Origin: Echinarachnius parma
Taxonomy: Eukaryota; Echinodermata; Echinoidea; Clypeasteroida; Echinarachniidae
Assembly: GCA_037951105.1 (NCBI GenBank)
Contig: JBAMJV010007213.1
Location: 1-64,000, forward strand
Reading direction: 5' to 3'
DNA length: 64,000 bases
Shown: positions 8,519 to 63,226 of the stretch, one piece after another
Layout of the letters: each line of letters opens with the position of its first letter
Numbering within the stretch: position 1 is the first letter of the stretch
Position numbers and translations under genes: made by a program
The notes under the pieces: model-generated
The model's database searches: none
Told to the model about the DNA's origin: nothing
What the model saw: only the letters and a program-made list of their open reading frames with translations

Positions 8519-9535
8519 AAACGTAAATATCAACAGCGCCATCTAAGTTTAAAACCTTAAAACGAGAGTATTGTTTTCACTGCAATATAACGATAACAAT
8601 CAGACAGCCTTTATAAACATTAAAAACCACTCCGTGCGTTGGCTAAGCAATGTGGATACTTCGCTTAGTTTGATAAAACTGACTTCTCTATCTGTGGGGC
8701 TTCACATCCTTCGGTTAGGGTTCAACCCGTTCCACATGCGCCATCCAACATCTTTTGCCCACCAATAAAGGGGGTTTCTTAGCACCTATGTTGCCCCCCT
8801 TTTCTCAGGCTCGCAATTTTAAAGGTTTACAAAGTCCCCATTTTAATTCTAAGTAATAACGGTGATAATAAACTGAGAACCAAACGATAATAACTAAGAA
8901 CAACTACATAAATACGATGTAAATACACTTCCTTTATGTGAATTAAACTCATTGCCATCATGCAACACAGTTAGCCCCCTTTTGAGCATGTGGAGTTATA
9001 ACTATTCGTTTGTTAGGTAATGGTGTAGGTTTTGGTTACTGAAATTCAGTTTGACCAAAACTGAACTATCTCTTTAACAATAAATAAAAGTAGATAAGAG
9101 GTAAATTCTATGAAAACTAAACGAAAAATACAGTGTACGTCTTCAACACCTCAGTGAATCTCTTTAATATTTTCTCGTATGTATCGTGCGTGATGAGAAA
9201 ACGTTAAATTCAACAGCGCCATCTAAGTTAAAACTCGAATACTGTTTTCACGTCAGTACGTCATGAATAATCATACAAAGCAATATAATCATTAAAAACC
9301 TCCCACTGTGTTGGCTACGCAATGTGGATACTTCGTTTAATCACTGCAATTGATATACATGATACTGCTATCTGTGGGGACTCATACAGGTTCTACGGGT
9401 AGGGTTCAACCCTTCCACATGCGCCATCCAACTTCTTCTGCCCACCCATAAAGGGGGGCTTCTTAGCATCCTGTAGCCATCTTTTACTCGGTTCGCAATT
9501 TTGAAGGTTTACAAAGTCCCCATTCTAAGTAATGC
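8519..9535. repeat. Tandem direct repeat, two copies 690 bp apart
   Basis: About 8519-8860 and 9207-9535 share TCAACAGCGCCATCTAAGTT, GCAATGTGGATACTTCG, TTCCACATGCGCCATCCAAC and GGTTTACAAAGTCCCC. Between them lies the end of a TTAA-family element (9005-9080). No coding frame is kept. Confidence 0.85.
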
Positions 9536-25700: not shown

Positions 25701-28700
25701 TCATAATAACCTAAATGCGCTTGTCATGAAGTTAAATAGGTAACCTAATGTAAGACTTTCCCATACCATTGTAACACATGTATAAAACGCTCAATTTCCA
25801 AATAATGTCTTATTATAAGTATTCTCCCTCTATAAATACATATTATCGTCTAATTACTTAATATCGTCATCAGTTAAAGGGGTAGTTTAGTTTTGGTAGA
25901 GAGGGCGCTGCACATCGCAATTTTTTTGTGAGGTAATGAAAAACTGAGTGTCGAATTTGAGAGAACATGCAATTTTAATGGCAGAATAAACTTTATTTGG
26001 TCAAAATCGACCCAGAAACGGCTGAAATATCAATAAATATATCTGATCTTATAATTATTTGGGGCCCAAATAATTAGATGATTTTTTGAAAAAAATAAAA
26101 AAATGCTTGCACTTGTTCAAAAAAATTTAAAAGCGTTTTTAAAATGGTTGTTGATGATCTCGCTATTTAATCATTATATCAACAAAACATCACATGCATA
26201 ATTTTGGTTGAAAATGGTTGAAACCAATGCCTTTTAAAAAAGCGCCCTCTTGTGTTTTAATGGCTCTTTTTGAATGATAACAGGCGTTTTACTTGGTCGT
26301 TTGTAATTTTGTATACCTTTCGAGCATGGTGGAGTTATAACTATTAGTTTATAATGTTACTGTGCAGGTTTTGGCTACTAAAGTTCAGCCTTTCCAAAAC
26401 TAAACTACCCCTTTAATGCCCAATCTTTATAGGTGTATGCTATGATAATGGCTTTTAAACTTTCAACGAGACGTAAAATACAGTATCAAGTACTCATTTA
26501 GACGACACTTTTTATCGTCCTTATTTTATTGTTGTCAACAACCCCACGCCCAACCTCCGTAGCTATGGACATTGTATCTTAGAAGCATAACGAGTTTATG
26601 TAGAGGACACATCTTTGTCGTTTGTTTCTTTGTAGGCTTCATGTCAAAGCGCTTTTCTGCTAATATGACGGTTCGAGAGTGTCAGCAAAGGCTGGTTGAT
26701 CACTACACAAGAACAGCTCGAATACAACTTCAGCCCGGTAATGCAAGGAGGACAACTGACTTTGAAGATTTGCATACCAAAATAAGCATGCACAAGAAAC
26801 AGTGGACAGACAGAGGTCAGCGTATTTCGAAAGAGGACTTGGTGGGATCCATTGACGATATCTTTGAAACAGAATTTGATGGAAAATTTCCTCCTCGCAT
26901 CGCTCTTTTAGGCGCACCTGGTTTAGGTAAAACCACCTCTCTGGCCAAGCTCGCACATGACTGGGCTGTCGATGAAGATTCGCCGCTGAGACATCGGTTT
27001 ACTCTCTTGTTCTTGTTGAAATTCCGGGAGATGAAGAGGGATTGTTCACTTGGAGAGGCAATCAGAACCAAGCTGTTGCAACAGTTCAAGGGCGTCACCA
27101 AAGAAGAAATTGAAAGCTTCATTATCAACAATGGAGAACGGTGCTGCGTCTTACTGGATGGCTACGACGAGTTCGGTCGTTCCATGCATTCTCCTGACTC
27201 CCCATCGTCTCTCATAGACATGCTGCTAAATGAACAATTCCCCGACTGCCGTGTCCTTGTGTCAACTCGTCCTAATCTGACAAGCCATTTCGAAACGGAT
27301 GAACTATCAAAAGTGTACGCCGTTATGGAGCTAGAGGAGTTCGGGGAAGAGGAGAGAAAACAATATATTGGCAAATTCTTCGTTGCCGAGCCCCCGAAAG
27401 GACGTCGTTTGTTGGATTATATCAAAAATCAGTACAACCTGATTTCTTTGATAAGAATTCCATTCTTCTGCATGGTACTGTGTACCCTCTGGGGAGGTGA
27501 CCGCTTGGTAAATGTTGAAACGGTTAGCAACATGATGGAATGCTTCCTAGAGTATCTCGCAGCACATGCCATAGCAAAGAAAACCTCTCTGACGAGTGCC
27601 GCCAACTACACAACGAAACATCTCAGAGTCGTAGTGGCAGCCATTGGGAAAGTAGCGTATGAGACGTTGTTAGAAGACAGTAATCAGTTGATTATCAACA
27701 AGGAAGAATTCGATGGGTGCCAGCAAGAGTTCCGCATTAGTGTCCATTTAGGTCTGCTGCATACATTTGATAAAGATTCATACAAACCCTTGGCACCTAA
27801 CGTCACTTGCTGTGAGTTTTACCACAAGTTGGCACAGGAGCATTGTGCCGGGGTCTATCTTGCAACTCTCCCACAGCATGAGTTAACTCAAAAGCTTAGT
27901 TTAATCGACAGCAAAGAAAGGGTTATTGAGTTTGAACACGTAATCCGGTTTGCAGCAGAGTCAGCACCACTTTCGTTTAGACCTTTCATCGATATTATCA
28001 CAATGTATAAACCAATTCCATTCGCAACAAATACTTTAATGTTGCACACCCTTGCGTTGGACATCGTTGGCATTTCTGCTACACGTGGTTTAGATGAACA
28101 GTTGGGCTCTAACCCGAGTTACCCCGCCGTTGTAAGACACCAACTTCTGCGACCCTACTTTGGTGACAATATCTCTATCACACAAGCCAGCAAGAGTACG
28201 GTCGTCGGAATCGAAAACCTGCCAAGCGACCTTAAAAACAGGGTGAGGTGGTAATATTTGTATACACTACGGGTAAACAGTAGCGCCGGATATTTAGTGC
28301 AGACACATGTTTACGTGATTTGTATTTATTGTCTTCCTAATTTTGTTGGTCGCATATCTCATGATCAGATGAATCAATTGTCATTAATCTTCACATGATG
28401 ATAGATTATGATCTAACTTAGATATGCGATGCTTTTTAGTGACGTCACATCACTGTGACGTCATCAGGACGCTATTTTGTCAAATTGTAATAATCATCAT
28501 AATAATCTCAGTCATGCATCATCAATTATTTCACTTCAAATTTCTCATCAATATTAATCCGGTCAATCGTTATCTTTTAAGCTCATGCGCATGCGCTTTT
28601 ACGCGCCCGTACGCGTCCGTCAAATGAAACAAAATGTAAACAAATGATAAAAACACTAACCCGAATAATTTACTATATTGTTTCAGACAATTTAAAGCAT

Positions 28701-31700
28701 TTCAAAAATTCCTCGCGTGCGCGTCGGCGCGATCGTTTTTTGCGAGCGTAACACAAATGAACAAACAAATGTCGTTTTTTCACATGGTTTTCAATCGGAT
28801 ATATTCCGTGTTTTATAACGGCATGTATAAACAGTGGTGTTCATTTATTAATTTTGAAATTCACCAGGGATTGATAGTCGTATATATAGACACATAGCTC
28901 TTCCCTCGTTCGCCCCTTGTTAAATACTCTGATAGAAAGCGGTTTGTAATGTCTGGAACTTTTTTGTGGATAAAATAACATGTAGACCCTTGCTGGTCAC
29001 TTGCTTCATTACATTTACAATAGACACATCATCGTGCTGTCGTGTATAAGTCCTTGTGTCAACGGGTCCAAATGTTTCAAGCCAACTCGAAACGGACTAA
29101 CTACCAAAGGTGTACGCCGTTTAATATGGAGCTGGAGGAGTTCGGGGGGAAAGAGTGAAAACAATATATTGGCAAATTCTTCATTGCCGATCCCCCGAAA
29201 GGACGGCGTTGCTGGAATATATCATTACTCAGTACAACCTGATTTCTTTGATAAATATCCCGTTCTTGTGCATGGTATATTGTGCATCCTCTGGGGAGGT
29301 GACCGTTTTGCAAATGTTGAAACGGTTAGCAACATGACGGGGTGAGGTGGTTAGACTTGTATACATTTCAGGTTAACAGTGGCGCCGGACATTTAGTGGA
29401 AAAATTTAGTTTTGGGGGCATTTGAAAAAGAAAACAAAATCAACCTCCAAACTGCCCAAAATGTATTAACATTTTTCATCTCCACTAACGACGCCAAACA
29501 TTTAGGTCATGTTTATATAAAACAATTTGATTGACTGTATTACCAATTTATTTCACACCGTTTAATCATTGGCATTTCAAATACATGTGGTGTAATGTCT
29601 ACGATCACACTTATGTGGCATGTTTATAACAATTTTGTTTATAATACATTAGATTATCATCTTTAGTAAGGGCGTAGCTTTCAATTGTTTGGGGCGGGAG
29701 CGGGGAGGGGTACTATATATTTCTTTATTCTGTACTGTTTTGCTTTTATGTTTTTTTAATCAAGATATTTAGTCAAATTATTGGAAGGATTTAAATATTG
29801 TTCTCCTTCTAATCAAGGATGTATACGAAAGCATACTTTCTTAAATATTCCTCCTTGCTCTAATCACTCATTGCAACGTGAAATTCATAGATTGCCGACA
29901 GACGTTTGATACAGGGTTATCATCAGACAAATCGATTTCGTGTGCTATAACATTATGTCAACAGTCGCGTCCTTTCTTTTTATTGCGAAGTTGACCGGAA
30001 AATGTAATACATATAAAAACACATACCTCTTCCCTCGTTCACTCCTGGTTTTCCATTTTGAAATAATATTATATGTCTGTTCTGCCTGTAACATCTGTGT
30101 TGGTACAAATAATATGCAGGGCATTTACAGGGCACTTGCTACATGTTGATGTAATGTCGTGGCATTGCATACAAAATAGACACACCATCGTGTTGTCATT
30201 TTTTTAGGCAAAGTGGCTTCTAAACACAGTATATCAATGGAAATCAACGTATTATCAACCATTTGTTTTGTGCACTTTGTTCTTTCTAAAAAAAAATCTG
30301 ATTTTAAAATTCGCATGTTTGTTTTGGAAAAATACAAAACGAACTACATCAAAGGCAACTCATAATGCTATGTCTAATCCAGGGGGAGGGGGGGGGGGGG
30401 GGGGGTTCACTCCCAACATGAGTGGCTACGCTCCCGACTACCACCACCCAACAATAATATTCACATCAAAGAAAGGTAACATCTTTAGTATTCCATTCCA
30501 TCAACATGTTCACAAAAATATTTTTCAAGAAAATAAATATATAATTGGAAAACGCATCACCATTCTAAAGCATGCGTTAATGCGGTCTGAATTGCGAAGA
30601 CTTATGTGTGCAGAGCGAACGAATCGCCCGGGAATCTATTGTCTACACACGTACGCGTAAATAGCATTGGCGCACTCGTAAATGGTTGTCCCGTATGGAA
30701 CCAGTAAATAGTAGTGGTTCCGTAAGTGGTGGAAATGAATTGCTTTGTTTATGAATTACACAACCCTTTGAAAAATTTTGGGTATCTGTTTAATATCACA
30801 AAACGGTACCACAACAAATAATAATGTGTTGTTCTTTGCCTGGTCGTCCCCCTTAAGAAAACTTTCAATATAAATTGCATTTTGTTTCATATGTGCGCTC
30901 TGCAAGCTAAACCGTATTATAATAATTATGACTATGTCTGCAAAAGCGGAATAGCGCCATCAGTTGTCTATTACATTATAGTAATTACAGATTGGGAATT
31001 ATATTCAATGGGATATCCATAGCGCAGATTTTCGCAAGTCAAAATTAACGTCATTGAGTTGCATACAACTCTCCGACTTCATTATAAAAGTGAATTATAA
31101 GTATTACATGTTGCTAAAATTATCACGATACTATCTAGGGATTATATTCTTCATGCTTTTAGAAGAGAGAACGGTCGTCTGGGCGTCACCCGTTCTTGTG
31201 TTTATATTATCACATAATTGCATTGTGTCATTGTGTCATTGTGTCATTTTCCTCGCCATATGACAAGGTCAACATTTTCACGGAATAAAACGGATTCATG
31301 ATTTTGGTTTCCATTTAAACCAAACACAAAAAGTAACTACCCCCTAAAAAAACTGCTCATAATTTCATAACCGATAATTGTTTCAAGATGTCACAATATG
31401 TCTTGCCACAATATTGGTCCAATGGTTATGTACATTACGTGTGAAAAGAGATATTAATCACTTTATGGCTGAGTGAGCACAGATTATAGACAAAATGGCC
31501 CAATTCAAAAGTCCCAAGACATTGCGCGTGCCTGTACATTGTTGTGAAACGGCTGAATGCATTAATTATGGTTTATGAAACAAAGGCTGTTTGATATTCA
31601 ATTCATTTTTATTTTTTTTAATGGCACATGTGGTAAAATGCATTCATTGCAATTTTAAAACGTTGCATTTTTAAATGTTTCACTAAATATTCTGTAATGA

Positions 31701-52720: not shown

Positions 52721-53298
52721 GGGTAAAATATAAATTTCTCACATGTAATGGTTAACAATTATTTTCAGCAAGTTATTCTCCAATCATATATATATATTCC
52801 CATTGATTATTAGTAACTATAAGTTTGTTCATATCTAACAGGTTGATATCATAAATAAAAAAATGTCCCTTCTCAGTGAAAAAAATACATTGGGGCTCAA
52901 GGCAATTTTTCAAAATGCTAAAAGTGCCCCCGTAAATTTGAATAGAGTTCAATGCAAAACAAATTTTAGAGTGCTATTTTCATGCAGGCCAGTTTGAAAA
53001 ATTGCCCCCCCCTCCCAATTTTTGTTTTTTTTCCCTGGCCTGTTCGTTCTGCCATACATGTCTTCAATACACTTCCTAATATGGGTTGAAAGCTCATCTT
53101 TATTTCCAATTCAAGCATTCTATATTTCAGATGTTTCTTGACAGAATTCAGCAGTTTGTCTTTCTTTTTTCTCGCAGTGGGGCTGTCGCCCAATATGTTT
53201 TTCTACCAAAGAGAAATTAATGTCAACAAGTTTATATATCACAACTTACATAATCTTAAATTTTCCTAAACAGTGAGTTACACAATGGTACCCACACC

Positions 53299-53513
53299 CA
53301 ATAGACCGCTTTTGTAATGTATGCAAATAATATGCGTATGACGTATGACGTATGCGTATGCGTATGACATTGGCAAGATTAACAATAGTAACTAGGTCCG
53401 GCAAGCTCCGGCAAACTTAGCTTGCCGGACCTAGTTACTATTGTTAAGCTTGCCAACGGGGAGTCTTACGTCATACGCATATTATTTGCATACATTACAG
53501 AAGCGGTCTATTG
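53299..53513. mobile_element. 215-bp near-perfect palindrome inside the sulfatase exon array
   Basis: CAATAGACCGCTTTTGTAAT pairs with ATTACAGAAGCGGTCTATTG. The centre contains AACAATAGTAACTAGGTCCG and its inverse. Other array units show the empty site (CCCACAC followed by TGAAG). Confidence 0.88.
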
Positions 53514-54016
53514 TGAAGTTTTGGATAACTCGGTGGATTGCCATATTAATTAATGGTGGCACAGCGTGTTTTTACCAAAATAGAATAATTCTTGAATCAC
53601 AATTTATATTCATACATTTTCCTCTTCAGTGAGATTCACCCATGGTACCCACACATGGCTGTGAAGTTTGGGATAACCTGGGTGATCGCTATATTCATTT
53701 TGCCGCGGTACTGCCATCCAAGTATACTTTTCTCAATTATTTTATACCAAAACATTATGAAAGTTTTTTGTGAATTTTACATCACTATTAATATTATAAA
53801 TGTTCCGTTTCGGTTTAGATTCACCCACGGAACTCAAGCATGACCATGAAACTTGGGGTTACTAACAAATTGCCGTATTTATTTTGCAGTAGCACAGCAT
53901 GTTTTTATCAAAATAAAATAATTCTTGATGAGTTTATATCATAGAATTTATAATATCATAAATGCTCTGCTTCAGTAAGATTCACCCACGGAACCCACGC
54001 TTAACGAATTGCTGTA

Positions 54017-54022
54017 TTTATT
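54017..54022 (-). promoter_or_regulatory. Candidate poly(A) signal AATAAA of the sulfatase
   Basis: AATAAA on the minus strand about 75 bases after the stop codon. It lies inside the first downstream exon fragment, so duplicated exon DNA may have become 3' UTR. The same hexamer recurs in the next fragment (about 53878). Confidence 0.35.
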
Positions 54023-54095
54023 TTGCGGTAGCACAACAGCGGTAGCACAACAAAATAGAATAATTCTTGATAATTTTACATCACTATAAATATCA

Positions 54096-54244
54096 TTAAT
54101 GTTCTGCTTCAGTTAGATTCACCCACGGAACCCACGCATGGCCGTGAAGCTTGGGGTTACTCAGCGGATCAGGGTCTTTATTTCGCGGCGGCACTGCCGT
54201 CTGGCGGTATTCCTCCAATCGCATCATCATCAGCTCGACAATGT
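54096..54244 (-). CDS. Sulfatase terminal coding exon
   Basis: Minus-strand acceptor TTTCCCAATGCAG before 54244. It encodes DIVELMMMRLEEYRQTAV, PPRNKDPDPLSNPKLHG and HAWVPWVNLTEAEH, then TAA at 54098-54096. LEEYxxTAVPPRNxPxDPxSNPKLxGxAWxPW is the usual ARSB-like ending. Four or five fragments of its 3' half repeat downstream to about 53.22 kb. Confidence 0.92.
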
Positions 54245-57200
54245 CTGCATTGGGAAAGAGTAATTAGGAATAAGTGATATATAAATAATGTTTCACAACA
54301 TATTCATACAGATATAGAATTAATCATTTGTCTCTAGAAGTAAAGAATAGAAATGTGTAAGTTTCGGAAGCACGTGCTACAACAGGACTCACACTATTTA
54401 CGATAACAATATGATATATACATGTACATGTACCTTTGTTCCATTCCGTGACGTTGTAGAATTCGCAAGGATCTTCATTGACGTTATACAAGGCTGGCAT
54501 GTTTTCAGGTTCATATTATCACAATATATTAATGAATGGTATGCTTTTTAAAATCTTATTATGAAGTGAAATGACTTAATTTAATCACCACTCATTTATG
54601 TAATCATTATACAACAATATGATACATACCTTCATTCCATTCTGTAATGTTGCAGAATTTGCAAGGGTCTTACTTGATCTTATACACAAATAGTTACTGA
54701 GAAAGGTTATCAAACTTCACTGAAAAATTTGTTGATTTTCTTTCTGATTGTGAATTCACTAATTTAATCCTCTTTATCTAATAGTTTGTAAAAACAGTTT
54801 ACCTTCGTTCCATTCCGCCATGTCGTAGAATTTGGAAGGATGTTCCCTGATGTTATACACACATGGTTGTTGAGAGACAATGTCCCAGTTTGTTGATGCA
54901 TTGTTATGTTTTTCTTTGTTTGGGGCCATCAGATTCAGGGCCCAGGGGCTCGATTACGGACCAGCAACATTTGCCATGGTAATTAGCATCACTGGCTCTA
55001 ACTCATCGATGTCAATATGCTAGAATAACATAAAACTCAAAATAACTTGGCAGAGCACACATACCTCCCTTGTTCATTCAACCGTAAAGGCTTGCACTAG
55101 CATATTTAGAGATCAGTGGAACTAGGTCTGGTCCTGGGTCATGATCATGCTCTCGGCCACAGGTTTCAGGCTACTACTTGTGTTTGATTTGCCTGACTGG
55201 GCCACAATGCAAACAAGTTATTTCCTGACAAAGCATTACAAACCTTCATTCCATTCCGCGATGTTGTAGAATTCGCAAGGGTCTTCTCGGATGTTATAGA
55301 GACACGGTTTCTGAGAGACGCTGTCACAGTTGGTAGACGCGTTGGCGGGTTTTGGAGGACACGATACGACGAAGGAGTTGGGTACGGGACGGTAATCCTC
55401 CGTATCATTGCCTAGCCCTGTATAATTTGAGATCAGGGGTGTGTTTCACAGAGATCCTAAGTTGATCTTAGCACTAAGATGGTCTTAAATATTATGGAAA
55501 GACATTGTGTCTTGAAACAGTTTTGTAAAAGTTATGTTGAAATGCATAAAATGTTGATTTAAATCATATATATTTTCTAATTATCAAATGTCATGAAATT
55601 TGTGTGAAGATCATGAATCTCTTTGATATATGACTTGAATCAACATTTTATGCATTTCAACATAACTTTTACCAAACTGTTTCAAGACACCAGTGGCTTT
55701 CCATAACATTTAAGACCATCTTAGTGCTAAGATCAACTTAGGATCTTTGTGAAATACCCCCAGGGATATGAGGTAGTACCAGGAGAGCATTGGAAATGTA
55801 CCCTTCAAAGATGATTGCCCATATATTTGTGGTTTATTGGTAAGCCTACATTTGAGAGAAAAAATATAATAAGATATATTAAGTGTACAAGGAGAAAGAG
55901 CACATATTTCTCTGTAATTTGAGCCATGTTTGGTTACTTTACCTTCTTTCATAATTTGTTAAATTATCTTTATTAGTAATCACAGATCTCAATATTTTAG
56001 GAATAGCCTTAAATTGGCAACCAATTTTTTACATTTTCAAATCTCATTTCTTCATTCAAATGGACAATCTCAACAACAAATTAATCAATATTTGTCTTTA
56101 AACACAATAACTCCATTTTTTCTACATATTTAAATGCTAAAAGGCAGCAAAGAAGAAAGAGAAGAGAGTTGCCAATTTGATGAGGGAATTAACGATTGAG
56201 CACTCTTATCTTCAGGTGGGTACCAGCCTGACTAATAGCAGTCGTCACGGTCTCCAATGTGCAGCTTGTAATCTTTATTAGTGCGTAGATCACAATAATT
56301 TAGGAAAATCCTTAAATTGGCAATGCACTGTCACATTTTCAAATGAGAATTGAGAATTGGCAACATCACAAAAAAAACCAAAGATTTTTAAAAATTTCAA
56401 ATAACTAATCAATTTCCACCAATTTTGATCCTATTTAAAGAGATAAACAAATTAGGAGTTGCCAATTTGATAAGGGTGCTATGAAATTGTCGTGGATGGG
56501 CGCAGTACTCTTACCTTCAGGTGGGTACCAGCCCGAGTAATGGCCGCCGTCAAAATCTCCAACATGCAGTTTGTAATCCCCGATCCTGATGGCAGAATAG
56601 TTCAAGAACGGTTCGATGTTGTGCAGTATCTCATTTCTCGGGGAGGCAGTACCTCTGAAATGAAAAAAAAAAGAAGAAAAAAGAGGGGTCAATATAAATC
56701 AGGTTTGATGTTGATTCATGACATTAAATGGAGAATCCCCTTCCCAATTGGGCTACCTATGGAACAAAATGTAAAATAAAAACTGAATAATAATATTGCT
56801 GATCTTGGTGGTAGAGAAGGTATAAGAACTAGTTTTAACTGCTGAAATAAAATGTAAAATAATAATTACCTAAACCAGTTGATCTGAACAAAATTAGCAT
56901 GCTTTTTTAGATTGCCAGCACCTACCAAACCATAGTGGGAAACCCGTCACAAACAAAAATCATGTGATACATACCGTACATAGACCGTGACCAGCCCTGA
57001 TCAGGTTAGTATATCTTTTATTTCAAACAAAAATGGAAGATGTTTTGTTTGTGCTCGGCAGAATGTTTTTTTTAATTTTTATTTATGTGTTTATTGATTT
57101 TCAACAATTAAATCGTAAATCAAGGTAATCAATAAACAATCCAAAAAAAAAAATATATAAAAAAATAATAATAATAACAATAATAAAAGCAGCAGCTTAG

Positions 57201-57982
57201 CTCGGCAGAATGTAACATTTCAGCCCCTAAAATGCCCCCAAAAGCCCCTAAAAAAATCATACAAGAGTTCCCTGTAATTTGACAGAGTTCTATATAAAAC
57301 AATGCTTGGACTGTCAATCTGATGTCAGAAAGCAAGAAAAGAAAATCCCCAAAACAAAATAGATTCTTTTCCTTTAACTAATAAAATAATAATAATGATT
57401 ATTTTAGCACTATTCCATGTGAGTATCACTGCACTTTACACTATTATTATCACCTGGTCAACGTATACACACTGCATTCATTCCTGCACACAAAGTTTAC
57501 ATTTTTTCACTCCCTAGGGAGTATTCCAGCCAGCAGTCTCCTGTTAGAGGCACATAGTGTTACTTACAGTGAAATAGCATTCCACGTGTTGTATCCATCC
57601 AAAATCAAATTCCTGAGATTGTTTAGATTGCCACCAGCCAAATCATATGACGTGGGAAGCCGGTCGCACCACATCATGTGAAACATACATGTGAATGTGG
57701 TGTGGCAAGATTGGTAGAGCGTGCGCTTTCCGATCTCGAGATCCCGGGTTCGAACCCAGCGCACTCCGTTTGTCCTTCAGCAAGACAATTAATCCACATT
57801 GCTGCTCTCTACCCAGGAGTATAAATGGGTACTTGGTCGGGTGTTAATTAGCCTTCAGCGCCCGTTGGGCAGCTGGGCTAGTATGCTCCCCAGAGAGTTG
57901 AGATGGTGCGCAAGATAATTGTGCAGGTTTGACCTGTACCTGATGACCAAGGGTAATAATAAAGCACTATATGAATGTAATA

Positions 57983-58018
<36 letters not shown>

Positions 58019-61000
58019 ATGCAGACCCAAGCCCAAGCACCATCTGGAACCAGTCCTGATAAGGTTTTTATCTTTTATTGCAAACTAAATTGTACGATCT
58101 TATTTACTTACAGTAAAATAGCATTCCACGTGTCGTATCCATCCAAAATCAAATTCCTGAGATTTTAAAGATTTGAATTGCCTCCAGCCAAACCATATAT
58201 CGTGGGAAGCCGGTCGCACCCCCGGGGGGGGGGGGGGGGGGGGCACTCATGTGTAATGTAAGACGGGTATGTGCCGCTTAAAAGAACCCCTTTTTCACAC
58301 CCGATCGCAGCTCTAAAGATATCCGATTTTCAAAAATTGCCACTCCATAGACCCCCGGAATGACTTGGCTAGGTAGTTGAGTAGCGCCAAGTCCATTATT
58401 CTTCTTCTAGTTCGGCTCCATAGACCCTGTTGCACCACAAATTATCGTACCTGCACAAATTGTCGTAGGCGACAATTTGTGCAAAATGTTGACACCACAA
58501 ATTGTCGCTTTCTGCACAAATTGTCGTTTGCGACAATTTGTGGAGGCGACGGCGACAATTTGTGCTGGTAGCTGGCACCACAAATTGTCGCCACACATAC
58601 GGTCCTGTTCAAAGCCATGATGACATACATTTTGGATTAAAATGATCATTCTTGACATACGGATATATATATTGTTTTTTAGACTTATGTTTTTTTTTTC
58701 AATGGAAAAAGTTATTTACCATTTCCATCTAGAATTTGTACACCAAACACACAATTTAGTGATTTTGGGGCCGACGCTCACTTACAAACGGTCACTGTGT
58801 GACTTCGGAATAGTATACCCGGTCGTCGCAAATTTGGTCTCAAAAGACTTCAATACAAAAAAAAACCCCCATGAAGTCACGCGGCGATACCTGCGTGCGA
58901 GGCGGAATTATCACGCGAAAGGTCGAGCCCCCCCCCCCCCCCAGGCCTGGTTGAATACAAATTTCTTTTGACATCGAATACAAAAACATAACAATTTTAA
59001 TTATTACAAAGACAGCACGAATAAATAAACCATGTATTCACAAACGTAAATACAAAAAAAGACAAGAAATAAAAAAGGGGACAAATCATTACCCCCCCCC
59101 CCCCCCCAGCTCATAAACACCCATGAAAGGTACCTAGCTAGAAACTGAAGGAAAAGCAGAAATACAACCGAAAATCACATAAAAACGAATATTAACACAT
59201 GCTCACACATGGCTTTTTTTTTTTTTTAAGTTGTCTCGAGGCCAATTTGTAGTGTTCTTTAATGGTCTCGGCCCCAAAACCAAATAGTCTCAGTCTCGGC
59301 CTCGAGATGTGTTGACGGATCTCGGTCTCTGCTTCGTAAAAATCTTCCACTGGTGTCGACACCGAGGCCGGCCTCGAGTCCACCAAAACTGATTATTATT
59401 ATTATCATCATCATCATCTTTGTAGCTTGAAGACAGCGACTGACGACAATTTGTGCAATATACGACAATTTGTGGTGTGAGGTTTTACGTGATTTCACAA
59501 ATTGTCGCCGGGTATGAGGACGGCGAGAGCAACACAAATTGTCGCAAACGACAATTTGTGCAGGAGGCGACAATTTGTGGCGTGAAATTTTGCACAAATT
59601 GTCGCCTACGACAATTTGTGCAGGTACGACAATTTGTGGTGCAACAGACCCCCTGAATGACTTGGCTATGTATTTGAGTAGCGCCAAGTCCATTATTCTT
59701 CTTCCAATTCAGCTCCTTGGACCACCATTTGAGCCTTTTTGAGGGTTTCCGTAGGTCTTTGGCAGCTCAAGTCTATATGTATTTTGTAGTTTTAGTCTGC
59801 TCCTTAGACCCCTTAACTCCCGTTTCAGGGTTTTTGTAGCTCCAAAGACCCTATATTTTGTGCTTGTAGTCAGCTCTTCAGACCCCCATTCAGAGTTCCG
59901 TGAGGCACACCCCGGTCAAAAAAAAATTTGAGTGCCCCCCCCCCCCCCCCCGGGGTCGCACCACATCATGTGAAACATACATGTAGACACAAGCCCAAGC
60001 ACTATCAGGACCAGTCCTGATAAAGTTTTTATCTTTTATTGTAAACTAAATGTGACCGGCTATAGCAAGACCTGGCACTTGTCGGTAATTCATGTTTTGA
60101 AGAAATGGCCATTTTAAGTTCACACAATGTGTGTAAAAGACCTACATGTATGATTGTAAAGTTAAAACATTGTATCTTCGTTAACTATTGACCAATTAGG
60201 TAGAACAAATCATCAAATGAAAGCTTGTCATAAGGCCTTTGTAATGATATGAAAATGTACATTTTGTTTTTTTATCGACAAGTGCCGGGTTTTGCTATAG
60301 CCGGTCACAAATTGTAAGACCTTTTATTTACTTACAGTGAAATAGCATTCCAGGTGTCGTATCCATCCAAATTCAAATTCCTGAGATTTTTGGGGTTGCC
60401 ACCTGCCAGGCCATAAATCGTAGGAAACCAGTCGCAAACATGCATCATGTGGTCGCTGAATCTGCACAAAGATAATTATGGAAATTATGCTCAATAACTC
60501 ACAGATACTTTAAATTAATTTATACAATTACAGTCATCCACACTTACCTTTTTTGTCAGTGGCCCGGCTGGGCCAGTGAAATAATTTCTTCTCCCTTTCT
60601 GGTGGCCCGAGAGAAAAATTTACTAGCCCAAATAAATTTTTGTTATTTCAATATAAACTTTTTACTATTCAAAATATCACTCTTTCCTGATCAAACCTGT
60701 GATTATAGATGAAACATGACATGGAAGAAAACAAGATCTTTCTGTTTTTGTCAATTTCAGGTTGAAAATCTGCTTGCCCAATCGGGCCACCAAAATATGA
60801 CTTTTGTACATATTTGCTGGCCCGAAGTGCAATTTCACTGGCCCTGGGCCAGCGGGCCAGTGTGAGTGTCGACCCCTGCTATATACCATAAATGTGGTTA
60901 TCTCCCTCCCCCCCCCACCCCCCCCCCCCACAAACTGGACAAGTAGAGCCCAGGGGGATGTTGCTCAACCATTAACAATTTATTGTAAAGTTGTGACTAA

Positions 61001-61699
61001 TTGCAAGTTAGAAAAATGTGACTAAAAGTGCAAATCTTTTTGTTTCAAACATGCTTATTTTATTGCAATTAATTAATTGCAACGTTTTTATTGCAAATCT
61101 TCTGCCACAGGGCTTTGGTCTAATGATACAATTAGCTATATGAGAACATCTTCTAAGTAAATTTTGTGGATTTTGACAATGTTACTACACCCCTTTAATG
61201 ATACTATTGATTATAAAAAGGTAAGTGCATTGCTTGAATTTGATCTACCTTCCCGGGCGGCGAATTAGAGGACTGTTTATGAAGGCCGTCCCCCTAACTT
61301 CGCCTTCCCATATTAGGTGTGCTTATGTTATTTGTTTCTATATATTTTCATTCGAGAGCGTTGGTCGCCACTTATCATGAAACATCGATCACAAACATTG
61401 TTACTGTACCTTTAAGGATAATATTGATTAGAAAGATGTATACACAACACATATTTTAATTTACCTTCCAGGGCGAACAATTAGGGGACTGTTTATGAAC
61501 GCCGTCCCCCTAACTCCGCCTTCCCATAAAGTGTGCTTGCACCCTCTCAGGGGCCAGTTACTGGCGTGGTTTCCATCATAACCATGAGTAGGTCCGCCGT
61601 TATCCGTAGTGAAGATGATGACCGAGTTGTCATAGAGACCCGCATCTTTTAGGGTCTGCGTTACATTGCCTACCGAGTCGTCCAAGGCTGATACCATAG
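54096..61699 (-). CDS. Arylsulfatase B-like sulfatase, C-terminal half (five exons; 5' part outside the window)
   Basis: Minus-strand exons in order: 61699-61465, 60461-60336, 56654-56515, 55417-55244, 54244-54096. All junctions have AG/GT and matching phases (1, 2, 2, 1, 1), giving 273 complete codons and a TAA stop. The protein shows FTTDNGG (metal-binding Asp-Asn of sulfatases), LRGCKHTLWEGGVRG (the conserved Lys next to the active site in ARSB), HVCDWFPTIYGLAGG, LDGYDTWNAIS, ASPRNEILHNI, PCLYNIREDPCEFYNIAEWN and LEEYRQTAVPPRNKDPDP. Order and motifs match the ARSB/ARSI/ARSJ group. The enzyme would hydrolyse sulfate esters of glycans, in lysosome or secreted. The C-x-P-S-R formylglycine site belongs to N-terminal exons, which are not in the window, so activity cannot be judged. 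Partial copies flank each exon. Confidence 0.92.
54434..54503 (-). pseudogene. Partial copy 3 of the PCEFYN exon, donor kept
   Basis: Minus strand reads LYNVNEDPCEFYNVTEWNK up to a GTACATG donor, in the same phase as the real exon and with conservative changes. The upstream half of the exon and an acceptor are not recognisable. It is either a relic or an alternative exon. Confidence 0.75.
54630..54716 (-). pseudogene. Partial copy 2 of the PCEFYN exon, with a stop
   Basis: Minus strand matches the NIREDPCEFYNIAEWNE region (DPCKFCNITEWNE), with donor GTATGT, but TAA falls where the Glu codon of RED should be. It cannot be read through. Confidence 0.8.
54803..54925 (-). pseudogene. Partial copy 1 of the PCEFYN exon, open frame
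   Basis: Minus strand reads NASTNWDIVSQQPC, VYNIREHPSKFYD and MAEWNE to a GTAAACTG donor, all in frame. The Cys of SxNCD and DPCE are replaced (Trp, Ser), so disulfides of the family would be lost. The 5' part of the exon is missing. Confidence 0.8.
54938..55165. repeat. Dispersed repeat, inverted partner of 10930-11157
   Basis: GGGGCTCGATTACGGACCAG and TGGGTCATGATCATGCTCTC match the other copy on the opposite strand. It lies between sulfatase exon copy 1 and the real exon at 55244. Confidence 0.85.
55244..55417 (-). CDS. Sulfatase exon PCLYNIREDPCEFYNIAEWNE
   Basis: Minus-strand acceptor AATTATACAG before 55417 and donor GTTTGT after 55244. It reads GNDTEDYRPVPNSFVVSC, PPKPANASTNCDSVSQ, KPCLYNIREDPCEFYN and IAEWNE. 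The PCLxNIxEDPCE block with its cysteines is typical near the C-terminus of ARSB-like enzymes. Two Asn-X-Thr/Ser sites (NDT, NAS) fit a secretory protein. Phase 1 in and out. Three partial copies lie downstream (54803, 54630 and 54434). Confidence 0.92.
55437..55761. mobile_element. 325-bp palindromic MITE in a sulfatase intron
   Basis: Arms GAGATCCTAAGTTGATCTTA, GCACTAAGATGGTCTTAAAT and AATGCATAAAATGTTGATT recur inverted to the right end GATCTTTGTGAAATACCCCC. Confidence 0.88.
56210..56290 (-). pseudogene. Partial copy of the GWYPPE exon with broken donor
   Basis: The plus strand CTTCAGGTGGGTACCAGCC matches the 3' end of the exon at 56515. The donor GT is changed to AT (minus strand GAAG|ATAAGAG), so it cannot splice as the real exon does. 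Similarity fades past about 56290. Confidence 0.8.
56515..56654 (-). CDS. Sulfatase exon ASPRNEILHNI to GWYPPE
   Basis: Minus-strand acceptor TTCATTTCAG before 56654 and donor GTAAGAG after 56515. It encodes GTASPRNEILHNIEPF, SAIRIGDYKLHVGDFDGG and YSGWYPPE (46 codons). SPRxEILHNI and AIRxGDxKL are family hallmarks. Phase 2 in, phase 1 out. A partial copy with a broken donor lies at 56210-56290. Confidence 0.92.
56885..56985 (-). pseudogene. Copy D of the HVCDWFPTI exon, most decayed
   Basis: Plus strand AGATTGCCAGCACCTACCAA, then CCATAGTGGGAAACCCGTC and CATGTGATACATAC, matches the middle and 5' part of the exon at 60336. Its 3' end and donor are gone. The segment after it resembles the intron next to copies B and C (CAGCCCTGAT...ATCTTTTATT). 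Confidence 0.7.
57370..57555 (-). mobile_element. SINE copy, minus strand, diverged
   Basis: Tail-like AATAATAATGATTATTTTAG, ATTATCACCTGGTCAACG and TCACTCCCTAGGGAG follow the order of the other copies. It lies next to sulfatase exon copy C. Confidence 0.6.
57568..57692 (-). pseudogene. Copy C of the HVCDWFPTI exon, open frame, SINE beside it
   Basis: Minus strand reads MMWCDRLPTSYDLAGG, NLNNLRNLILDGYN and TWNAIS to an intact GTAAGT donor. The frame is open, but the acceptor side is displaced by a SINE (about 57691-58017). The conserved HV and W of HVxDWxPTI are changed. Likely non-functional, though the donor and coding likeness are notable. Confidence 0.82.
57691..58017 (+). mobile_element. 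tRNA-derived SINE with (ATT)n tail, nearly full length
   Basis: Box A-like TGGCAAGATTGGTAGAGC and box B-like GGGTTCGAACCC, then GTCCTTCAGCAAGACA, CCCAGGAGTATAAATGGGTA, GATGACCAAGGGTAATAATA and a tail of ATT repeats. ACATG occurs on both sides. Copies elsewhere in the window share the body. Confidence 0.85.
58436..58592. repeat. Left cluster of CGACAATTTGTG motifs
   Basis: About eight copies of the 12-mer CGACAATTTGTG in both orientations within 157 bases, one degenerate. They form several short hairpins. This is the left arm of the nested foldback element. Confidence 0.9.
59444..59640. repeat. Right cluster of CGACAATTTGTG motifs
   Basis: About nine copies of the same 12-mer in both orientations within 197 bases, forming the right arm of the foldback element. 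Clustered subterminal motifs of this type are usual transposase binding sites. Confidence 0.9.
60051..60309. mobile_element. TIR MITE (TGTGACCGGCTATAGCAA ends)
   Basis: 259 bp with inverted ends TGTGACCGGCTATAGC and GCTATAGCCGGTCACA. It sits in the sulfatase intron between copy B and the real exon; the corresponding site near 58090 (AAACTAAATTGTA) is empty. A related copy lies at 62962-63213. Confidence 0.88.
60336..60461 (-). CDS. Sulfatase exon MMHVCDWFPTI to NAIS
   Basis: Minus-strand acceptor TTGTGCAG before 60461 and donor GTAAGT after 60336. With the two bases carried over it reads RFSDHMMHVCDWFPTIYG, LAGGNPKNLRNLNLDGYD and TWNAIS. HVxDWxPTIxGLAGG and LDGYDxWNAIS are highly conserved in ARSB-type sulfatases. 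Phase 2 in, phase 2 out. Three degraded copies follow downstream, near 58.1, 57.6 and 56.9 kb. Confidence 0.93.
61249..61326 (-). pseudogene. Copy of the 3' part of the DNGG exon
   Basis: Plus strand CTTCCCGGGCGGCGAATTAG and GGACTGTTTATGAAGGCCGT match 61465-61542, covering WEGGVRG to RPG. The donor GTAGAT is kept; the 5' part of the exon and an acceptor are absent. Confidence 0.82.
61465..61699 (-). CDS. Sulfatase exon with DNGG and WEGGVRG motifs
   Basis: Minus-strand acceptor CTCTTTGCAG before 61699 and donor GTAAAT after 61465. It encodes MVSALDDSVGNVTQTLKDAG, then SVIIFTTDNGGPTHGYDG, LRGCKHTLWEGGVRG and SPLIVRPG (77 full codons). DN of DNGG ligates the active-site calcium in known sulfatases, and the Lys after LRGC contacts the sulfate. 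Phase 1 in, phase 2 out. Partial copies lie on both sides: 61851-61940 (5' part) and 61249-61326 (3' part). Confidence 0.93.
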
Positions 61700-61850
61700 C
61701 TGCAAAGAGGCAAAAAAAGAAAAAGAAAGAAAAAGAGACAAAAATTTGAATATTTTGTTTTAAGTACATGTAGCAGCTTTTAGATTCTCATAATCTTCAT
61801 ATAACATTTTGTTTGACATAGCTTCTAATTGATTTATCATTTTCTGTTGT

Positions 61851-61940
61851 GGAGATGATGACCACGTTGTCATAGAGACCTGCATCTCTTATAGTCTGTG
61901 TTACGTTGCCTACCGAGTCATCCAAGAGCTGATACCATAG
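61851..61940 (-). pseudogene. Copy of the 5' part of the DNGG exon, frameshifted
   Basis: Matches 61609-61699 with its acceptor (CTTTGCAG|CTATGGTATC). An extra base in the Ser-Ala-Leu region shifts the frame, and the match stops before DNGG. The intron behind it is also duplicated (61765-61830 resembles 61970-62030), so the unit is about 241 bp. Confidence 0.82.
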
Positions 61941-62284
61941 CTGCAAAGAGGCAAAAAAAAGAAAAAAACTAATAACATTTTGGTTGATATAGCTTCTTTT
62001 AGATTCTCATATTTTTCCTCATACAACATATTGATTCTGTATCAGTACTGTAGTTTAAATGCCCTTGACTGCTTTCCGTAGTTTTTTTGTAACAAAATCA
62101 GTTCAATTTCAGAGCTGAAGAAATGCAGATAAAATGAAAATTCATGACCTTCTATGACTCATCAGCTAGTTAAAAAATTTCCCTGACATTCAAAGCCTGG
62201 AAAACAAAAAATGTGAATTCCATGACTTTCCAAGTTTTTAAAGCCATGTGTGAACCCTGTATTCCTGGGCCCCCCGTGTCATGT

Positions 62285-62695: not shown

Positions 62696-62961
62696 TAACA
62701 GCGAGACTAACAATAGCCATATTTTAATGAGCTGTGCACCAATTTTAGCATCTCGTTTCTGATGAAGAGAGACGCAAAAATGCACCTCTTTTGTTCTCAT
62801 ATCCTGTGTAGATCTGGATTAGCGCCCCAAGCGCAAAGGGGCGGTTGAACATTTTGCAGGCTTTTACTTTGTGTTTTGTTATTTAAACTACACCTACCCA
62901 CACATTTGTTGTTAAATTATATATATATTTTCGGTCAAATTATTACTATCATATTTATGTA

Positions 62962-63213
62962 TGTGACCAGTTAAAGCAAAACCCTGCACTTGTTGGTAAT
63001 TCATGTTTTGAAGTAGTGGGCATTTTAAGTTCGCATAATGTGTGTAAAAGACTTATGATTGTAAAATTGAAACAATCCTATCTTCGCCAATTATTGACCA
63101 ATTTCTTGGAACAAAGCATCAAATGAAAGCTTGTGATGAGAACTTTCTAATGGCATGGCAATCTACATTTTGATTTTTACCAACAAGTGAGGGTTTTGCT
63201 ATAGCTGGTCACA
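62962..63213. mobile_element. TIR MITE, second copy of the TGTGACC family
   Basis: Ends TGTGACCAGTTAAAGC and GCTATAGCTGGTCACA; the interior matches 60051-60309 (GGTAATTCATGTTTTGAAG, AAATGAAAGCTTGT). Confidence 0.88.
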
Positions 63214-63226
63214 TATATATATATTA

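Follow-up and report, generated by a model that had tools for sequence, protein, structure and literature searches.

We report that in the window analysed here, the first 64,000 nt (bases 1-64000) of the 81,968-bp contig JBAMJV010007213.1 (hereafter C7204) from the 1.2-Gb genome assembly of Echinarachnius parma, the exons of an arylsulfatase B-like gene stand beside partial copies of themselves. Most probably (we would put it at about 80%), these copies are decayed, minisatellite-like tandem duplications, mostly spanning the exon edges of an apparently working gene. Such a structure has been termed a mirage in amphioxus, where it is described as a tandem duplication, resembling a minisatellite, of the boundary between an exon and an intron (PMC3087553).

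Encoded on the minus strand, the gene comprises 11 coding exons at 54.1-70.8 kb of the contig and reaches beyond the window: coding exons 1-6 are found at ~70.8-64.5 kb and exons 7-11 at 61.7-54.1 kb. Among solved structures, exons 7-11 were most similar to N-acetylgalactosamine-4-sulfatase (1fsu, E 5.6e-42), the human arylsulfatase B. The joined exons matched the Sulfatase domain (E 1e-59), and exon 2 contains CTPTR, the active-site cysteine motif of sulfatases. Splice sites and reading frame, examined by eye, were kept at all 11 exons on C7204, and judging from its sequence this gene is apparently a working arylsulfatase B-like gene.

Exon copies in tandem with their parents

Copies were detected for 7 of the 11 exons on C7204 and for 8 of 11 across all contigs examined, exon 6 having copies only on C12074 and C14521; for exons 1, 4 and 5, none of the contigs examined yielded a copy at E 1e-3. 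The features inside the window are listed in Table 1. Outside it, exon 2 (contig 69.2 kb) has a copy at an offset of 235 bp (92.5% identity) and exon 3 (67.4 kb) a copy at an offset of 172 bp (88%). The preliminary description of the window had named five duplicated exons and stated that every exon has copies. Each of its copies for exons 7-11 was recovered by self-alignment, and all five exons were confirmed; the list was nevertheless incomplete for a gene of 11 coding exons in which exons 2 and 3 are also duplicated, and the statement about every exon does not hold.

Table 1. Main exons, their copies and an inserted element at the 3' part of the gene (window coordinates)
Feature	Position	Strand	Identity to parent and remarks
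Exon 7 (DNGG), parent	61464..61701	-	intact
Exon 8 (HVCDWFPTI), parent	60336..60461	-	intact
Exon 9 (GWYPPE), parent	56513..56656	-	intact
Exon 10 (PCEFYN), parent	55244..55416	-	intact
Exon 11 (terminal coding), parent	54096..54246	-	intact
Exon 7, 5' copy	61840..61966	-	88%; end of the intron, acceptor and ~100 nt of exon start; also present in 4 other contigs
Exon 7, 3' copy	61176..61324	-	78.5%; last 75 nt, donor and ~70 bp of intron
Exon 8, copy 2	58087..58218	-	82%; with donor
Exon 8, copy 3	57560..57692	-	83%; open frame, no acceptor seen
Exon 8, weak copy of exon start	56919-56966	-	75% in 52 aligned columns; E 0.04 by tblastn
Exon 9, copy	55966..56273	-	67%; last 66 nt and ~225 bp of intron
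Exon 10, copy 2	54801..54903	-	3' part up to donor
Exon 10, copy 3	54623..54702	-	stop codons present
Exon 10, copy 4	54431..54490	-	
Exon 11, array	53514..54000	-	C-terminal coding end and 3' flank; offsets ~137-185 bp
Exon 11, copies	about 53938-54000, 53789-53866, 53576-53718 and 53238-53297	-	
Exon 11, outer half of split last unit	53238..53298	-	
Palindromic element splitting last exon 11 unit	53299..53513	not assigned	

The tandem units are ~140-310 bp long and consist mainly of part of an exon with adjoining intron or 3' flank; those of exons 2, 7 (at both ends), 8, 9 and 10 span an exon-intron boundary. In agreement with the earlier proposal that the units are exon plus intron, the aligned parts include intron in the 3' copy of exon 7, the copy of exon 9 and copies 2-3 of exon 10, as well as, more weakly, in exon 10 copies 3-4, and the aligned units of exon 11 include 3' flank. 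Because several units contain intron or 3' flank, they represent genomic tandem duplications, and retrocopies were ruled out. Identity between copy and parent varied from 67 to 93% in the self-alignment and differed between exons (79-84% for the exon 10 copies). Excluding exon 8, 11 neighbouring unit pairs (two of them from exons 2 and 3, outside the window) scored 76-293, compared with maxima of 32-53 after shuffling.

Offsets within arrays were ~137-305 bp, compared with a duplication size of about 150-550 bp suggested at first; the wider spacings at exons 8 and 10 contain other, later sequence. The exon 8 spacers consist of a dispersed repeat (57690-57840), a stretch of ~1.7 kb and a 263-bp repeat recurring at 62961-63216. 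Sequence beside exon 8 copy 2 (58016-58090) matches 59978-60051 across the ~1.7-kb insertion, and 56990-57044, by the weak copy, resembles the flank of copy 2. The dispersed repeat after copy 3 recurs on three other contigs and appeared tRNA-like by eye; no tRNA was listed at 57690-57840 in the Rfam search. The last exon 11 unit, split by an element on C7204, is unsplit on contig C5032. The intron separating exons 9 and 10 also holds a palindromic element resembling miniature inverted-repeat transposable elements (55437-55761), of which at least dozens of genomic copies exist at 93-95% identity.

Orthologous copies, constraint and possible exchange

Further versions of the gene were identified on other contigs: all 11 exons are present on C3884 and C12771 and ten on C14521, C12074 has exons 1-9 and C9845 has exons 1-2, and on C5032 the reading covered only exons 9-11. 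For more than 20 kb, C3884 and C12771 align collinearly with C7204, mainly at 90-95% identity with some stretches at 80-88%. These contigs may be alleles or recent paralogs. Orthologous copies occur on four other contigs and, for exons 9-11, on C5032, several of them sharing breakpoints. In all five contigs compared, the exon 9 copy begins at parent nt 79 and the 3' copy of exon 7 at nt 163, the exon 10 copies begin at nt 72, 100-107 and 118 in C7204, C3884 and C12771, and the exon 2 copy is present on three of six contigs. Copy number was variable: three extra exon 10 copies were detected on each of C7204, C3884 and C12771, one on C5032 and none on C14521.

The preliminary description had called for a tree of each exon to date the copies. 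In trees built from short sequences and read without support values, the 5' copies of exon 7 and the copies of exon 8 were separated from all parents regardless of contig, and exons 2, 3, 9 and 10 were mixed, which exchange between units would explain. Most of the duplications predate the split of the contigs.

Selection was compared by counting variable sites at codon position 3 and at positions 1+2. The ratio was 85:36 in the main exons (exon 3 apart) and 53:64 in the copies (Fisher p=0.00013). The count omitted the weakest exon 8 copies of four contigs, the second fragments of exon 6, several units of exon 11 and, from C12074 and C12771, respectively, an additional fragment of exon 7 and exon 3b. 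The main exons are strongly constrained and the copies weakly. Outside exon 3, the copies are partial, most have no acceptor or donor (by eye), and several have stops or frameshifts; they look mostly dead.

A possible exchange between parent and copy was found at exon 9. Over the last 66 nt of this exon, the C12074 copy differs from the parents of four other contigs at nine sites. The C12074 parent has five of the nine copy states (affecting four amino acids) and not the other four, one of which lies inside the stretch, and it has no change of its own in these 66 nt. Several of the states also occur in copies on other contigs, and exon 9 of C5032 has the common parent state. Gene conversion from the copy to exon 9 in C12074 would be the shortest account. 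On the other hand, the site within the stretch that mismatches the copy speaks against conversion, and, as C12074 may be the sole member of its group here, its states may be ancestral. The broader idea that exon edges are preferred for small tandem amplification throughout the genome, and that decayed copies form a store of variants written back into the exon, appears rather unlikely.

As for the origin of the units, they may have arisen by replication slippage or end-joining repair, and the arrays may grow and shrink by unequal exchange; the copy-number differences between contigs fit slippage or unequal exchange. As one complete exon, splice sites included, remains after each duplication, the extra edges could be skipped as pseudo-exons, and the units would thereby be tolerated.

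Possible preference for exons and competing explanations

A serious competitor, to which we give somewhat less than even odds, is that the process is not exon-specific: small tandem duplications would fill a quarter to a third of the gene, and exons would stand out because their protein is recognisable and because a parent under constraint is slow to diverge. Across five contigs, we found 52 tandem families in 86.0 kb of gene region and 31 in 219.5 kb elsewhere, where 'elsewhere' is not a random sample (it comprises flanks, the whole of C9845 and 30 kb from further sulfatase loci) and the counts on both sides include dispersed repeats. Between 24 and 36% of the gene region lies in arrays, and in the five contigs these hit exons no more than expected under circular shifts (p 0.105-0.47; by exon bases, p 0.095-0.39). 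Intronic and flank arrays that were not found elsewhere in the examined sequence are also present, and a young 196-bp duplication upstream of exon 1 in C12074 differs between contigs. To this extent, the preliminary description, which listed exon copies, was not borne out. Two further arrays were rejected as local duplications: that of ~157 bp in intron 1 (C3884, C12771, C14521 and C12074), whose sequence recurs in another sulfatase locus (L025) and another intron, and that at 64163-64388 of C7204, likewise classed as a dispersed repeat.

Counting founding units gave a different picture. With one unit counted per array, and omitting the dispersed array at 64163-64388 and one lying within the 1.7-kb insertion (59443-59606), 8 of 10 arrays on C7204 overlap an exon, against 19-30% expected (P 5e-5 to 1.5e-3). 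Since these arrays were picked by hand and masking was incomplete, a preference for exons is suggested but not shown.

Exon edges are duplicated at other sulfatase loci as well, which likewise speaks against a process indifferent to exons. Among the loci compared (the 2-3.7-kb stretches L001-L008 and the 10-kb stretches L023-L025, some of which look like near-identical pairs), three have such duplications: L007, L023 and L025. Units comprising the acceptor and the 5' part of an exon are present twice on L007 (1155-1482) and three times on L008 (996-1482) at offsets of 163-167 bp, the sequence having been read on L007 only. Two exons of L023 have edge duplications (149 and 157 bp), with the same offsets on L024; exon edges on L007 and L023 were judged by eye. 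L025 has a 114-bp duplication at 94%, and its exon has a Sulfatase match. No direct repeats of the exon-edge type were found on L001, L003 and L005; L002, L004 and L006 do have direct repeats, which may or may not lie at exons. Beyond sulfatases, a PF00728 search for paired exon matches in another family gave four matches and no pair, and was too insensitive for short copies. Given these loci and the amphioxus genes, the arrangement is not confined to this gene.

A second alternative, that the copies are functional, mutually exclusive exons, is improbable for the gene as a whole and draws its strength from exon 3. Exons 3a and 3b of C7204 (67287-67589; L009) are 113 nt each, have consensus splice sites and lie 59 nt apart. 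Their variable sites (21:15) show an excess at codon position 3 (p=0.0009). Exon 3a is intact in five of five contigs and exon 3b in three of five, being truncated in C14521 and split by a 6.45-kb insertion in C12771. Since both have 113 nt and their joint inclusion would break the frame, exons 3a and 3b are probably interchangeable or mutually exclusive, and exon 3 is likely to have a spare or mutually exclusive exon. This pair alone combines two complete exons, splice sites, out-of-frame joint inclusion and constraint on both members. The copies in the window, in contrast, are partial, mostly lack an acceptor or donor, contain stops in several cases and, as noted above, are weakly constrained. 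With its TG...CA ends and 5-bp target duplication, the insertion in exon 3b (C12771 21782-28232) resembles a long terminal repeat (LTR) retrotransposon.

An assembly artefact in which haplotypes were set in tandem is very unlikely, even though several versions of the locus exist in the assembly: identity between copy and parent is unequal between exons, the copies bear stop codons, frameshifts and inserted elements, and orthologous copies are present on three to five contigs, several with equal breakpoints. Least likely of all is that one or two tandem duplications of the whole gene were later thinned to remnants. Several contigs do have gene versions, but the copies of each exon adjoin their parent in the order of the gene and several carry intron of their own, and self-alignments and exon searches revealed no run of consecutive exons that is repeated on C7204. 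The maintained gene order, the intron carried along and the orthologous copies thus fit many separate local duplications, as originally proposed, and not whole-gene copies or misassembly.

Several observations weigh against decayed mirage-like duplications of a working gene. The copies deviate from parity between codon position 3 and positions 1+2 (ratio 1.65, p=0.005), suggesting that they still show some constraint or homogenisation. Most of this deviation comes from exon 10 copy 2 (13:8 alone), which is 93% like its parent in C3884 and may therefore have been converted by it. No intact exon 6 was seen on C14521, and small indels occur in exon 1 of both C12074 and C12771, so not every version of the gene need work. 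In addition, the exon 11 arrays span the stop codon and 3' flank, the exon 3 pair is a whole-exon duplication, and units of up to 305 bp and identities down to 67% lie beyond published mirages.

Other repeated sequences were noted on the same contig. A NACHT-domain (NLR-like) gene (window 26563-29345) has a partial exon copy at 29050-29340, 85% identical to 27253-27538 and 1.8 kb downstream. A vault RNA match (8636-8755) falls within one member of a direct repeat (76%; window 8519-9528) whose two copies stand 680 bp apart, so a vault RNA gene may be locally duplicated. By the contig end (78.1-81.97 kb; L010), near-identical open frames recur ~1.85 kb apart, which suggests long tandem units rich in CA repeats.

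Relation to known tandem duplications

Intron gain through internal tandem duplication has reportedly been described. Tandem duplication within a gene and splice signals in some copies are common to that process and this locus; the locus differs in having no sign of a new intron, for which no dedicated test was made. Tandem exon duplication, found in ~10% of animal genes according to a 2002 study cited in PMC9013439, resembles the present case only in exons 3a and 3b, where an entire exon is repeated together with its two splice sites and the lengths bar joint inclusion, the other copies being partial and decayed.

The closest likeness is with mirages. According to PMC3087553, the globin genes BflGb6 and BflGb9 have units of 150-160 and 157 bp with 81-100% identity, located at 5' and 3' exon edges, with regular splicing reported; six and three units occur in two haplotypes of BflGb6, Adh3 is cited as an earlier case, and it is proposed that new introns in amphioxus may stem from mirages. 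PMC3902484 names PGBD5, Adh and troponin C for mirages. Both here and in amphioxus, tandem units span the exon-intron boundary. Their number differs between BflGb6 haplotypes there; here it differs between contigs (exon 10; L007 and L008), which may be haplotypes or paralogs. Units of 149-167 bp (L007/L008 and L023/L024) and 172-305 bp (exons 2, 3, 7 and 9) and exon 11 offsets of 137-185 bp compare with a published range of 10-160 bp. The present locus differs in that most exons of one gene are affected, the 3' flank is included and the host is an echinoderm. The mitochondrial COX1 of this genome points the same way: it has TGA within the frame, ATA at many sites of expected Ile and AAA at one site of expected Asn, in line with genetic code 9. 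Our literature search, in which subscription journals were sparsely covered, recognised no mirages outside lancelets. By analogy, the locus is apparently a dense new example, in another phylum, of a kind of structure already described.

If true, dense and old mirages in an echinoderm would make mirages a wider deuterostome feature. A single gene would show the birth, number change, possible conversion and death of exon-edge duplications together, and exon 3 would provide an example in which such a duplication leaves a spare exon.

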